Assembly: GCA_913060565.1 (NCBI GenBank)
Contig: CAJXRU010000030.1
Location: forward strand, 1-37,540
Source of the DNA: an uncultured Gammaproteobacteria bacterium
Lineage (GTDB): Bacteria; Pseudomonadota; Gammaproteobacteria; Enterobacterales; Psychrobiaceae
Reading direction: 5' to 3'
DNA: 37,540 nucleotides
Positions 31,338-34,724 of the stretch are shown here, piece after piece. The position numbers and the translations under genes were made by a program. How positions within the stretch are numbered: the stretch's first letter is position 1; every line of letters begins with the position of its first letter. A model generated the notes under the pieces. The model did no database searches, was not told the origin of the DNA, and saw only the letters and a program-made list of their open reading frames with translations.

Positions 31338-32033
31338 CTACTGTCCTGCTTTGTCTGTGCTAGCGTAAGCTTCACGTTGTAAGATAGAAGAAAATTCTTC
31401 CATAAAGTTTGCGTAACTGTTTTCTAATTTATCAACGGTCGTTGAAAATTTGTTATAGGCTATTACAGCTGGGATTGCAGCAAATAACCCCATCGCCGTT
31501 GCGATAAGTGCTTCAGCAATACCAGGCGCAACCATTTGTAACGTTGCTTGTTGAACAGCGCCAAGTGCGATGAAGGAATTCATGATCCCCCATACCGTGC
31601 CAAATAAGCCTACGTATGGAGAGATTGAGCCAACTGTCGCTAAAAACGATAAATTATGTTCCAGACGGTCAATTTCACGTGATAACACGACACGCATAGC
31701 TCGGTGAGAACCAGCGATGATAGCATCAGGATTAGAAGCAGATGACTGACGTAGACGTGCAAACTCTTTAAAACCAGCGCTGAACATTTGTTCAACACCG
31801 CCATTGCTACTTGTACGTGCAGATAGTTCTTTATAGATTGACGATAGATCTGCACCACTCCAAAATTTGTCTTCAAATTTCTTTAGACTGGTCTTCGCAC
31901 CATTGAGTAGTGCCCGACGTTGGAAAATTACCGTCCAAGAAACGATGGAGGCAAGTAATAATGCAAGCATTACAAGTTGGACTAAAAGACTAGCTTCTAA
32001 AAATAGATCAATAAACGATAACTCAGCTTGCAC
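31338..32033 (-). CDS. tolQ: Tol-Pal proton channel component TolQ
   Basis: 231 residues, ExbB/MotA family, three TM helices (about 15-37, 133-155 and 166-190). GTVWGIMNSFIALG and APGIAEALIATAMGLFAAIPAVIAYN are the conserved channel segments. The start is GTG 32033 with GAGGAG upstream; it overlaps the end of ybgC by 11 bases. Confidence 0.97.
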   Translation of the reverse strand: MQAELSFIDLFLEASLLVQLVMLALLLASIVSWTVIFQRRALLNGAKTSLKKFEDKFWSGADLSSIYKELSARTSSNGGVEQMFSAGFKEFARLRQSSASNPDAIIAGSHRAMRVVLSREIDRLEHNLSFLATVGSISPYVGLFGTVWGIMNSFIALGAVQQATLQMVAPGIAEALIATAMGLFAAIPAVIAYNKFSTTVDKLENSYANFMEEFSSILQREAYASTDKAGQ

Positions 32034-32424
32034 GCTGTAACTCCTCTAAAATAAGACTTGGGATGGCCGTTGGTTTCATTTGTTCCAACGCAACCGAGAC
32101 AACTACGACCAACGCAGTACTCAACAGGTTCCCATCAATGGTGGTAATTTTTTGTTTAAAAACAATACTGGCACGTTTCAACTGCTCGATTTCAACGGTT
32201 ACTATTAATTGATCGTTAAAACGCGCAGCGACTAAATAGTCAAGTTCACATTTTCGTACTACAAACGCTAATCCTTGATCAAGTAACGTATCCTGTTCGA
32301 AACCGAGGTCACGTAAGAATTCCGTTCGCGCTCTTTCGTAGAAATTAAGATAATTCGAATGATAAACGACACCACCGGCGTCGGTATCTTCATAATAGAC
32401 TCGCACTGGAAACTCAAAAATCAT
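32023..32424 (-). CDS. ybgC: Acyl-CoA thioesterase YbgC, Tol-Pal operon
   Basis: 133-residue hotdog thioesterase acting on short-chain or acyl-ACP-linked substrates; in E. coli it is tied to phospholipid enzymes at the inner membrane. The active-site block is YYEDTDAGGVVYHSNYL with D15 and the ERARTEFLRDLG helix, followed by FVVRKCELDYL. It is the first gene of the operon, overlapping tolQ by 11 bases. The operon promoter should lie in 32425-32560; I could not assign it. Confidence 0.96.
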   Translation of the reverse strand: MIFEFPVRVYYEDTDAGGVVYHSNYLNFYERARTEFLRDLGFEQDTLLDQGLAFVVRKCELDYLVAARFNDQLIVTVEIEQLKRASIVFKQKITTIDGNLLSTALVVVVSVALEQMKPTAIPSLILEELQRAS

Positions 32425-32638
32425 AGGACAAACTATAAAACTAAAATTAACCGCTGAAACTACTATAGAAACAGCTCTGTATCAACATCCGAGACACTCA
32501 ATCGACTAAAATAATTACAATGCGCCGAAATTCGTGTAAAACAGCAACATTCCCTTACAATTCGCGCTTACATTCATACACCTGTTTAATTCGATGAGAA
32601 CTCCATCACATTTCCATAACAATAAGTAATTAAAGTTA

Positions 32639-32656
32639 TTTGCATGACTATGCAAA
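32639..32656. promoter_or_regulatory. Inverted repeat upstream of the orphan RNA promoter
   Basis: TTTGCAT GACT ATGCAAA, a 7-bp perfect repeat with a 4-base gap. A second repeat, GCATTA (32721-32726) and TAATGC (32734-32739), lies 21 bases before the -35 box. Either could be an operator for the RNA gene; the binding protein is unknown. Confidence 0.4.
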
Positions 32657-32759
32657 GATAATGATTAACCTAAGCCAAACCGCTTGATAACAACAGATAG
32701 ATATTCAGAATAGGAGCATTGCATTACTAAAACTAATGCGAAGGTAGAGTTTTTCTTGT

Positions 32760-32788
32760 TTGAACCAACGTCAATAAATACGTATTAT
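32760..32788 (+). promoter_or_regulatory. Near-consensus sigma-70 promoter for the orphan RNA
   Basis: -35 TTGAAC (32760-32765), exactly 17-base spacer, -10 TATTAT (32783-32788). The expected start is A32795. No coding sequence lies downstream on this strand. Confidence 0.8.
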
Positions 32789-32794
32789 AGCGCC

Positions 32795-32933
32795 ATCTCG
32801 AAAGACGCTCTTGTTACTGTCTTTCAGGTTAGTCTGATACTAACCAGTTATCTCTTGTTGTTGAGTTACTTAACTTCCTATTTGACCATTATCGGTCATT
32901 TAAGCCCACTGCCTTTTTAGTGGGCTTTTTTTT
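32795..32933 (+). ncRNA. Candidate orphan structured small RNA (~139 nt)
   Basis: Isolated plus-strand transcription unit between ybgC and ruvB, both of which are on the minus strand. Predicted stems: SL1 GAAAGAC/GTCTTTC (32800-32806, 32819-32825) with a 12-base loop; SL2 GGTTAGT/ACTAACC (32827-32833, 32839-32845) with a CTGAT loop; a U-rich unpaired stretch (32846-32882) that holds ACUUCCU, complementary to Shine-Dalgarno-like AGGAAGU; SL3 TGACC/GGTCA (32883-32887, 32894-32898); then the terminator. There is no ATG and no usable reading frame. I do not recognise a known family; the start GAAAGACGC recalls enterobacterial MicA, which is only a memory-based hint. Confidence 0.72.
32902..32933 (+). 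terminator. Strong terminator of the orphan RNA
   Basis: AAGCCCACT (32902-32910), 8-base loop, AGTGGGCTT (32919-32927), with an unbroken run of eight T up to 32933. Confidence 0.93.
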
Positions 32934-33063
32934 GTCTAAAATTCAAAAGCGCAATATTTCAGCCTTAAGAAGATTCTCTTAATTGATGACTAATATGAGT
33001 GAATAAGCACATTACAGCTAGCCTATTCACCCTAGTCTAAAATGAATGATAAGGACTAACGAG

Positions 33064-34077
33064 CTAGTCAGTTTTTTTGGCTGATAAGCCAAAGTGCAGA
33101 TAGGTTTGGGCAGTGGCAATACGGCCGCGATGCGTTCGTTGTATAAACCCTTGTTGAATCAAAAATGGTTCGATAACATCTTCTAAGGTTTCTTTATCTT
33201 CACCAATCGCCGCCGCTAAGTTATCTAATCCCACGGGTCCACCGTCGAATTTTTCAATAATGGTCATCAGCATTTTCCGATCCATGAAATCAAAACCTTG
33301 GTTATCGACATCAAGCACTGACAACGATTCTTTTGCCACTTTCTCGTTAATTGCCCCATCAAAGCTAACCTGTGCAAAATCACGAACGCGGCGTAGTAAT
33401 CGATTTGCAATACGCGGTGTTCCGCGTGAACGCCTGGCAATTTCAGTGGCTCCCATTTGGTCAATACTTACTTCAAGCTGTCCTGCACTGCGAGTAACTA
33501 TGTCTGTAAGTTGTTCTACTGTATAGAACTCTAAGCGCAGTGGTATACCAAAACGTGCGCGTAACGGCGATGTGAGTGAACCCGCTCTGGTTGTCGCACC
33601 GATCAGCGTAAACGGTGGTAATTCTAATTTAATAGAGCGCGCTGCAGGACCTTCACCAATCATAATATCCAATTGATAATCTTCCATTGCAGGATATAAG
33701 ATCTCTTCAACCACCGGGCTTAATCGATGAATTTCATCTATAAATAAAATGTCACCATGTTCAAGATTAGTGAGCAACGCTGCCAAATCCCCTGCTTTTT
33801 CAAGGACAGGACCTGAGGTTGTTTTAACGTTAACATCCATTTCATTGGCAACGATATGCGCTAATGTTGTTTTACCCAAACCTGGCGGACCATAAACCAA
33901 CATATGATCTAAGGCTTCATCACGTAATTTTGCTGCTTTGATAAATATACGTAACTGCGCCTTAGCATCTGTTTGACCCGTATAATCATCGAGCATTTTA
34001 GGGCGCATCGCACGGTCAATACTGTGCTCTGTATCGTCGATGGTGTCGGCTTGGATGAGTCGATCTGCTTCTATCAT
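33064..34077 (-). CDS. ruvB: Holliday junction branch-migration ATPase RuvB
   Basis: Hexameric AAA+ motor that drives branch migration with RuvA. 337 residues. Walker [13 protein letters not shown] (about 62-73), Walker B FIDEIH, sensor 1 and arginine-finger region [18 protein letters not shown], sensor 2 [12 protein letters not shown], and a C-terminal winged helix (about 265-330, including [17 protein letters not shown]). ATG 34077. It is the last gene of aspS-ruvC-ruvA-ruvB order, 23 bases after ruvA. Confidence 0.98.
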
Positions 34078-34100
34078 GCGTTATCTACTTTATTTTACGG

Positions 34101-34724
34101 TTATATCATTGATTTCAGCGCAGCTTTAATAAGTGCTTCACTATCCATATCTGGCAATTTTACTTTCTTAACCACTTTCGTCGCTTGCGCTTGTTTGTAG
34201 CCTAGCGCTAACAACGCGTCAATGGCATCTTGCTCTACATCAATCGCTTCAACAAAGGTTGAGCCTAAGTTCTCTTGAGGTATTGAAAGGTCGCCAAGTT
34301 CGCTTTGCTGATTCAAAGTAAAGTTTTTCAAACGATCCTTTAACTCTATAATTAGGCGCTCAGCGGTTTTTAATCCGATGCCCGGTAACTTAACGAGCGC
34401 ATTAGCGTCATTATTGGCAACGATATTAACAAACTCAGCCGCCGACAAACCAGATAAAATTGCCAATCCTAGTTTTGGACCAACCCCATTTGCTTTAATG
34501 ATCTGTCTAAATAATTCACGTTCAATCTTTTGTGCAAAGCCGTATAGCAACTGCGCATCTTCACGCACTACAAAATGCGTATGGACCGTTACTGATTCAC
34601 CAACATCAGGCATTTGATAAAAGCTGGTCATCGGCATCTGAACTTCATATCCAATACCACTCACTTCCAATAGTAAATGTGGCGGTTGTTTTTCGGCAAC
34701 TAGGCCATTTAATCGTCCGATCAC
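34101..34724 (-). CDS. ruvA: Holliday junction-binding protein RuvA
   Basis: Tetramer that clamps the four-way junction and positions RuvB. 207 residues: N-terminal OB fold ([13 protein letters not shown]..., about 1-62), two helix-hairpin-helix motifs (about 70-130, with [13 protein letters not shown] and [16 protein letters not shown]), a flexible linker and a C-terminal RuvB-binding domain (about 160-207, [19 protein letters not shown]). It follows ruvC by 4 bases. Confidence 0.98.

Follow-up and report, generated by a model that had tools for sequence, protein, structure and literature searches.

A candidate small RNA gene with a GcvA-type repeat upstream, between ybgC and ruvB, and its distribution relative to gcvA-linked gcvB

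The closest described counterpart of the RNA considered here is GcvB (RF00022). In E. coli, gcvB is preceded by two GcvA repeats centered at -65 and -43 from the start, and the GcvA site is given as ATTAG-n5-CTAAT (PMC5002191). The unit we analyzed shares with GcvB a GcvA-type operator-like site at -65, its own terminator, the motif ACUUCCU and residence in gcvA-bearing genomes. It differs in lying away from gcvA, in lacking the R1 core TGTTGTGTTT, in scoring below the GcvB model cut-off, and in carrying another element before the -35 hexamer. More broadly, it resembles Hfq-dependent trans-acting sRNAs in having its own promoter, hairpins, a conserved U/C-rich linker and a GC-rich terminator with a U-tail, features known here from sequence. 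Searches of the open-licence literature returned no paper joining small RNA, ruvB, ybgC and intergenic, and none joining GcvB and Alteromonadales; the titles and abstract openings make no mention of the RNA analyzed here, which does not prove that no report exists. GcvB and motY are not mentioned in the available portion of a Shewanella sRNA survey (PMC5471319).

The RNA unit between ybgC and ruvB

The window, the whole 37,540-nucleotide stretch analyzed, is contig C30 of genome G000 (4.35 Mb in 215 contigs), from an uncultured gammaproteobacterium; other genomes, contigs, loci and families also carry working labels (G, C, L and f numbers). An earlier note, made from the sequence alone, had proposed an orphan small RNA gene in the gap between ybgC and ruvB, running opposite to its neighbors. 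This orientation holds, as ybgC, tolQ, ruvB, ruvA and ruvC are all on the - strand. The features of the region are:

32023-32424, - strand: ybgC, named by curated model
32760-32788, + strand: promoter TTGAAC-17-TATTAT (TTGAAC 32760-32765, 17-nt spacer, TATTAT 32783-32788)
32795-32933, + strand: putative sRNA gene, 139 nt, start predicted; based on fold, genus conservation and covariance-model match
32800-32825, + strand: stem-loop 1, GAAAGAC...GUCUUUC, from the fold
32827-32845, + strand: stem-loop 2, GGUUAGU...ACUAACC, from the fold
32866-32882, + strand: linker UUACUUAACUUCCUAUU, putative pairing stretch, kept in aligned same-genus rows
32883-32898, + strand: small hairpin UGACC-AUUAUC-GGUCA, from the fold; UGAUC...GGUCA in G001
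32902-32933, + strand: intrinsic terminator (stem 32902-32927) with U-run to 32933
33064-34077, - strand: ruvB, named by curated model

The unit is arranged like an independent sRNA gene: it lies outside coding genes and has both a promoter and an intrinsic terminator of its own. The promoter is present as the earlier note described it, though the match alone is at chance level: the interval 31500-34500 holds seven promoter-like sites against 6.8 expected from shuffles. Terminator-like sites in the same interval number seven against 2.6 expected; none of the others reaches the 10 pairs of the site at 32902-32927, which also has a U-run, in agreement with the strong terminator that had been claimed. 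The ~139-nt transcript, counted from a predicted start, folds at -39.9 kcal/mol, compared with -22.1 +/- 3.0 in shuffles (z -5.87; 0/200 as good). Of the stem-loops, the two 5' hairpins, the small UGACC...GGUCA one and the terminator are stable, and pairing around UCUUGUUGUUGAG varies from fold to fold. At gathering cut-offs, Rfam finds only tRNAs in the whole window and no family at the RNA unit. Below threshold, many sRNA families gave similarly weak scores and none was accepted; ArcZ and FnrS, considered on account of their motifs, are both absent from these sub-threshold lists.

When 98 genomes were searched at the DNA level, strong matches came from the genus only (G007 95%, G006 80%, G001 76%). 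Anchoring on YbgC located all nine genus genomes (G000 included), and a + strand terminator unit occupies the ybgC-ruvB gap in 8/8 of those with a complete gap (our own included); G003, whose contig ends there, was not countable. The genus units have diverged strongly in sequence and retained their stems. In stem 1, GAAAGAC/GUCUUUC becomes GAGAGGC/GCCUCUU in G006, which amounts to two two-sided changes; in stem 2, GGUUAGU/ACUAACC becomes GGUUAAUA/UAUUAACC in G001, with one two-sided change, and G006 has a different hairpin there; the terminator CCCAC/GUGGG becomes CCUAC/GUAGG in G001. These two-sided changes, four in total, were read by eye from four close same-genus rows, two of which are nearly identical. 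ACTTAACTTCCT is identical in three of the four aligned genus rows and reads ACATAACTTCC in G001. For the Shewanella-type rows (n=10), RNAalifold predicted 40 pairs, 10 of them with two-sided changes.

The earlier note had suggested a covariance search at this gap in relatives, and the outcome favors its proposal: the stems carry the compensatory changes just described, and a covariance model of the 3' 92 nt, built on 35 units from other families with the window's genus left out, finds 32841-32933 at 37.2 bits (runner-up in the window, 12.3). We rate the unit above chance because it is kept at the same place in the genus and is matched by this model. Conservation, terminator, promoter layout and compensatory changes thus uphold the small RNA gene, and we are confident that 32795-32933 is a real, conserved one; it is no orphan, since related units occur in several families and its promoter has GcvB-like spacing and an operator-like site.

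The upstream repeat and the distribution of the unit

The sequence upstream of the promoter, GCATTACTAAAACTAATGC, contains a repeat that the earlier note did not include, and a possible second site follows it:

32723-32737, no strand assigned: inverted repeat ATTACTAAAACTAAT, putative GcvA site IR1, one arm mismatch to ATTAG-n5-CTAAT, center -65
32745-32759, no strand assigned: possible second GcvA site IR2, TAGAGTTTTTCTTGT, center -43, within the conserved AATTTTTCTnGTTTG region; presumptive assignment

IR1 is probably a GcvA operator, judging by motif and spacing. The -65 position is measured from the predicted start; in E. coli K-12, the center of ATTAGTTTTTTTAAT lies 65 nt upstream of the annotated gcvB 5' end. 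The distance from box center to the end of the -10 hexamer is 58 nt in both the window and E. coli gcvB (by eye in E. coli), and this distance does not depend on the predicted start. Among the matches listed, the distance is 56-59 nt in 19 of 21 best-box rows (offsets 50-66 scanned; the four last genomes and E. coli stand outside these rows); G007 and G001 give 61 because a different hexamer outscored. Same-genus boxes have perfect arms in G002, G004, G005, G006 and G008 and one mismatch in G007 and G001. Moreover, AATTTTTCTnGTTTG occurs with at most three mismatches in 38/48 unit promoters, and with one in the window.

We counted as a unit any box with no more than two mismatches in its arms that has a -10 hexamer at a distance of 55-60 nt and a terminator lying 60-320 nt from the start, and looked for it in 80 named loci retrieved by YbgC. 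The sRNA strand yielded 32 units versus six on the opposite strand; with at most one arm mismatch the figures are 23 (in 22 loci) versus 0. Units lie near ybgC in Pseudidiomarina, Idiomarina (two mismatches), Alteromonas, Aliiglaciecola, Bowmanella, Aestuariibacter, Paraglaciecola, Marisediminitalea, Rheinheimera, Psychrosphaera and Paraferrimonas, and near ruvB in four Aeromonas loci. The two-mismatch units of Gilliamella, Xenorhabdus and Actinobacillus (n=3) look like chance, and the Catenovulum locus, with a gap of 18 nt, has none. Rfam at cut-off gave only tRNA in 13 relative loci. In Shewanella, 6/8 loci carry the unit ~2.6-2.9 kb upstream of ybgC, with ruvB not nearby (L063 is cut, and none was seen in L068). 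An envelope role, which the earlier note had taken from the tol-pal neighborhood, is unsupported because the unit's position is not kept; the operator-like site points to glycine or amino-acid control.

Counted by family, the unit lies upstream of ybgC or downstream of ruvB in f1 (8/8), f7 (8/8), f20 (5/5, including G050 with two arm mismatches) and f6 (8/9, the exception being G122). None was found in the ybgC/ruvB regions examined of f2, f4, f10, f12, f14, f15, f16, f21, f26 and f27, or on the ruvB side in f2, f5, f6, f8, f12, f13, f16 and f21; the searched regions span 1.5-5 kb, so a unit placed elsewhere would escape. A RuvB tree (51/52 rows usable) places the window's family with f6 (support 100/98) and does not resolve the deeper order.

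Relation to GcvB

The 450 nt upstream of gcvA were surveyed in 70 genomes (f4, f8, f12, f14, f15, f26 and f27 fall outside this set). Loci of f5, f9, f11, f13, f18 and f21 had been chosen by a GcvB-model match or as E. coli, and those of f1, f2, f6, f7, f10, f16, f20 and f25 by GcvA. A divergent terminator is present in f2 (4/4), f5 (1/1), f9 (6/6), f10 (8/8), f11 (2/2), f13 (2/2), f18 (7/7, E. coli included), f21 (2/2) and f25 (5/6), and in none of the genomes of f1 (0/8), f7 (0/9), f20 (0/5), f16 (0/2) or f6 (0/8). Two weak hairpins 59 and 144 nt before gcvA in G122 (f6) were left out of this count. The R1 core TGTTGTGTTT is found upstream of gcvA in 37/38 regions of f2, f5, f9, f10, f11, f13, f18, f21 and f25 and in 0/32 of f1, f6, f7, f16 and f20.

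Where both places were examined, the unit is present in 27/28 genomes (f1 7/7, f6 7/8, f7 8/8, f20 5/5), and 0/28 of these have a gcvB-like R1 core beside gcvA. The reverse, gcvB and no unit, is seen in 12/12 genomes (f2 3, f10 4, f21 2, f13 2, f5 1), with coverage of the ruvB side only for f13, f5 and one f21 genome. This pattern is not strict, because five Aeromonas-like genomes (f25/g35) have both loci and four genomes (G122, G032 and two of f16) have neither. G122 shows no gcvA-linked sRNA and no unit in the stretches examined.

One way to account for such reciprocity is that the unit is gcvB itself, relocated from gcvA and diverged past recognition. The box at the same -65 distance and the ACUUCCU common to E. 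coli GcvB would fit this, although of the R2 seed ACUUCCUGU the window has ACUUCCU without the following GU. The behavior of the covariance model would fit as well: over 83 loci it places the eight genus units at the top (32.7-39.9 bits) and GcvB loci next (at most 31.7 bits), interspersed with Aeromonas-like ruvB units and an f16 locus. The gap between the two groups is narrow, and with GcvB loci as the next-best matches a remote relation to GcvB may exist. The GcvB model also matches the window over its full length, but at 22.5 bits against a cut-off of 42, and we give this no weight because the model scores 27.6 bits elsewhere in the same genome, away from the unit. None of the nine same-genus genomes has a match above cut-off anywhere.

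Several observations argue against relocation. The R1 core is absent from all units (0/45), so the RNA is not GcvB by sequence. The gcvB-type element CATTATAATTTGTC is found within two mismatches upstream of gcvA in f2, f5, f11, f13, f18 and f21, in f10 (7/8) and f25 (5/6) and in f9 (0/6) not at all; the units have a different element, only 2/48 coming within two mismatches. Five Aeromonas-like genomes keep both loci, and in G014, G077 and G148 (f7) a gcvB-type promoter persists beside gcvA, as though gcvB had been lost there by decay. We therefore consider it unlikely that the unit is a displaced gcvB.

These three f7 genomes and G083 (f16) have CATTATAATTTGTC and a box beside gcvA with no R1 core or terminator (L266 in G014, L268 in G077, L270 in G148, L282 in G083), possibly relics of a lost gcvB. 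In G077, ACTTCCTGTA, which resembles E. coli GcvB, stands before a divergent reading frame beside gcvA. The sequence ATGTTGTGTTTGC occurs in 5/33 genomes of f1, f6, f7 and f20, where a reversed control also gives 5/33 and the six sites have no box and no terminator nearby. It occurs in 12/16 other genomes, 11 times at the gcvB place and in G114 elsewhere.

The anatomy of the RNA, its conservation, its operator-like site with the spacing, and its reciprocal distribution with gcvA-linked gcvB are directly observed here. Overall, we lean toward a GcvA-controlled, trans-acting sRNA that belongs to a family distinct from GcvB and may pair through its linker. The RNA is found in marine groups in which no GcvB was found and may thus be the missing RNA arm of the glycine control circuit there. 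A broader reading, to which we give an even chance, is that a second GcvA-controlled sRNA family took over the role of GcvB in the Shewanella-like, Alteromonas-like and window-type families: GcvA and its operator would have been kept and the RNA arm of the glycine/amino-acid circuit exchanged, and the Aeromonas-like genomes with both promoters and the f7 relic promoters would be traces of that exchange. If a different GcvA-driven sRNA indeed fills this role in large marine groups, it would show how one sRNA can replace another under an unchanged regulator, provide a defined gene for those working on Shewanella and Alteromonas, and add an RNA family missing from Rfam release 15.

Two side observations concern other loci. 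At L162:1493-1636 (G023, f16) the GcvB model matches below threshold (38.2 bits against 42). The matched stretch has a terminator of its own, is flanked by genes that by eye resemble queA and a sensor kinase, and lies on the contig of gcvA, >100 kb from it; no GcvA box was seen there, and the match may mark a third place for a GcvB-like RNA. At L142:1114-1392 (- strand), a divergent 92-aa frame, with no Pfam family above cut-off, occupies the place beside gcvA used by gcvB in other families.

Regulator, linker and candidate targets

Control of the sRNA by GcvA appears likely from its upstream sequence. The window's genome encodes a GcvA (NF008352, 459.5 bits against a cut-off of 288) with 64% identity to E. 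coli GcvA over residues 1-301. Its gene is on contig C1 among other neighbors and the unit is on C30, so the unit is neither adjacent to nor divergent from gcvA. A perfect-armed box lies 16 nt before the gcvA start. Sixteen such boxes were listed in this genome; five of the 15 examined are outside frames of at least 100 codons, and these five include those preceding gcvA and kbl. One-mismatch boxes number 356 genome-wide, against 303 for a reversed-pattern control, and because they are hardly over-represented, the argument for a GcvA site rests on position and conservation rather than number. The palindrome at L143:1405-1419 (contig C5), 211 nt upstream of kbl (glycine C-acetyltransferase), is perfect-armed; it sits inside a longer perfect inverted repeat and so could be a hairpin.

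Alternatively, a LysR-type regulator other than GcvA that recognizes a similar palindrome might drive a real sRNA. LysR-type sites have the T-N11-A form, and boxes of the GcvA form are frequent by chance, both of which leave room for such a regulator. In addition, the predicted GcvA motif of Shewanella is described in the accessible part of one report as completely different from that of E. coli (PMC3223726). The f6 genomes, whose sRNA sequences match named Shewanella loci, point the opposite way, with ATTAG-n5-CTAAT just before gcvA (perfect arms in 6/8, one mismatch in 2/8). Within 150 nt upstream of gcvA, a box with no more than one mismatch in its arms is present in f1 (6/8), f6 (8/8) and f7 (7/9), but in f20 in 0/5, where four of the five genomes have two mismatches. 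Since the motif and the -65 spacing at the unit equal the published GcvA ones, we regard a different regulator as improbable.

Under GcvA control, this LysR-type glycine-cleavage regulator would bind the repeat at -65, possibly together with another site around -43, and would activate the sRNA promoter in response to abundant glycine, as it does for gcvB in E. coli. The expressed ~139-nt RNA would cover purine-rich ribosome-binding sites of target mRNAs with its U/C-rich linker (ACUUCCU in the window), and Hfq would probably bind its U-tail. By analogy with GcvA and GcvB, the outcome would presumably be glycine-dependent control of amino-acid uptake, and the RNA family would take the place of GcvB in Shewanella-, Alteromonas- and window-type families.

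The ACUUCCU noticed earlier is indeed in the linker and is complementary to purine-rich ribosome sites. Pairing with such sites, also suggested in the earlier note, is plausible from the linker, and we hold the chances that the RNA acts by base-pairing through it to be evenly divided. ACTTCCT occurs in 22/45 units (6/8 in f1) and TTCCT in 39/45. GTTCTTATGCTTGACTTCCTTCCTT is invariant in 10/10 aligned Shewanella-type rows, flanked by hairpins that vary; the invariant stretch of Shewanella-type units is GACUUCCUUCCUU, and because RNAalifold pairs part of it, the description of the linker as unpaired is our own reading. In G037 (f6) the linker, CTTAACTTCCC, is intermediate between the Shewanella form and the window's CTTAACTTCC.

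When up to two mismatches are allowed, the linker complement AGGAAGTTAAGTAA has 53 sites in the window's genome (the one in the sRNA itself counted) versus 62 for the reversed sequence, so there is no enrichment. Among 29 other sites examined, GGGAAGTTAAGTAATG at L314:1501-1516 (contig C15), at the start of the gene for a GGDEF protein, is the one at a start codon that matches most closely. It is complementary to 14 nt of the linker with one G-U pair; G007 retains it, G006 has an altered form, and it was not seen in the remaining matches of the genus. Duplex energies for target pairing were discarded as evidence on account of long internal loops.

That the unit is instead a short mRNA for a small protein is very improbable: the Aeromonas unit near ruvB does have a frame of 25 codons in each of the three loci read, but the window transcript contains no ATG anywhere in 32795-32933, and the 9-codon ATG frame that spans the invariant Shewanella stretch is cut short by a stop at codon 7 in G108 and G013. 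We give hardly any credence to a cryptic promoter and terminator serving ruvB in place of a functional RNA, since the terminator does lie ~130 nt past the ruvB stop but its U-run follows the stem on the + strand only, and promoter, box, linker and stems are conserved together, with covarying 5' stems.

The Aeromonas unit lies at the 3' end of ruvB (L039 about 870-1224, L033 and L047), with a promoter of the same layout and a ~250-280-nt transcript. Its 25-codon frame, which reads MKKFVAKTIRYYKLSFVQLYQMNRL in A. salmonicida, has no Pfam match. The small frame followed by a terminator gives this unit alone a loose likeness to VcdRP of Vibrio cholerae, which the accessible part of its description presents as CRP-controlled, 306 nt long and carrying VcdP (PMC8672173), unlike the ATG-free window RNA. 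Aeromonas-type ruvB promoters are also present in G143, G053, G131, G072 and G118.
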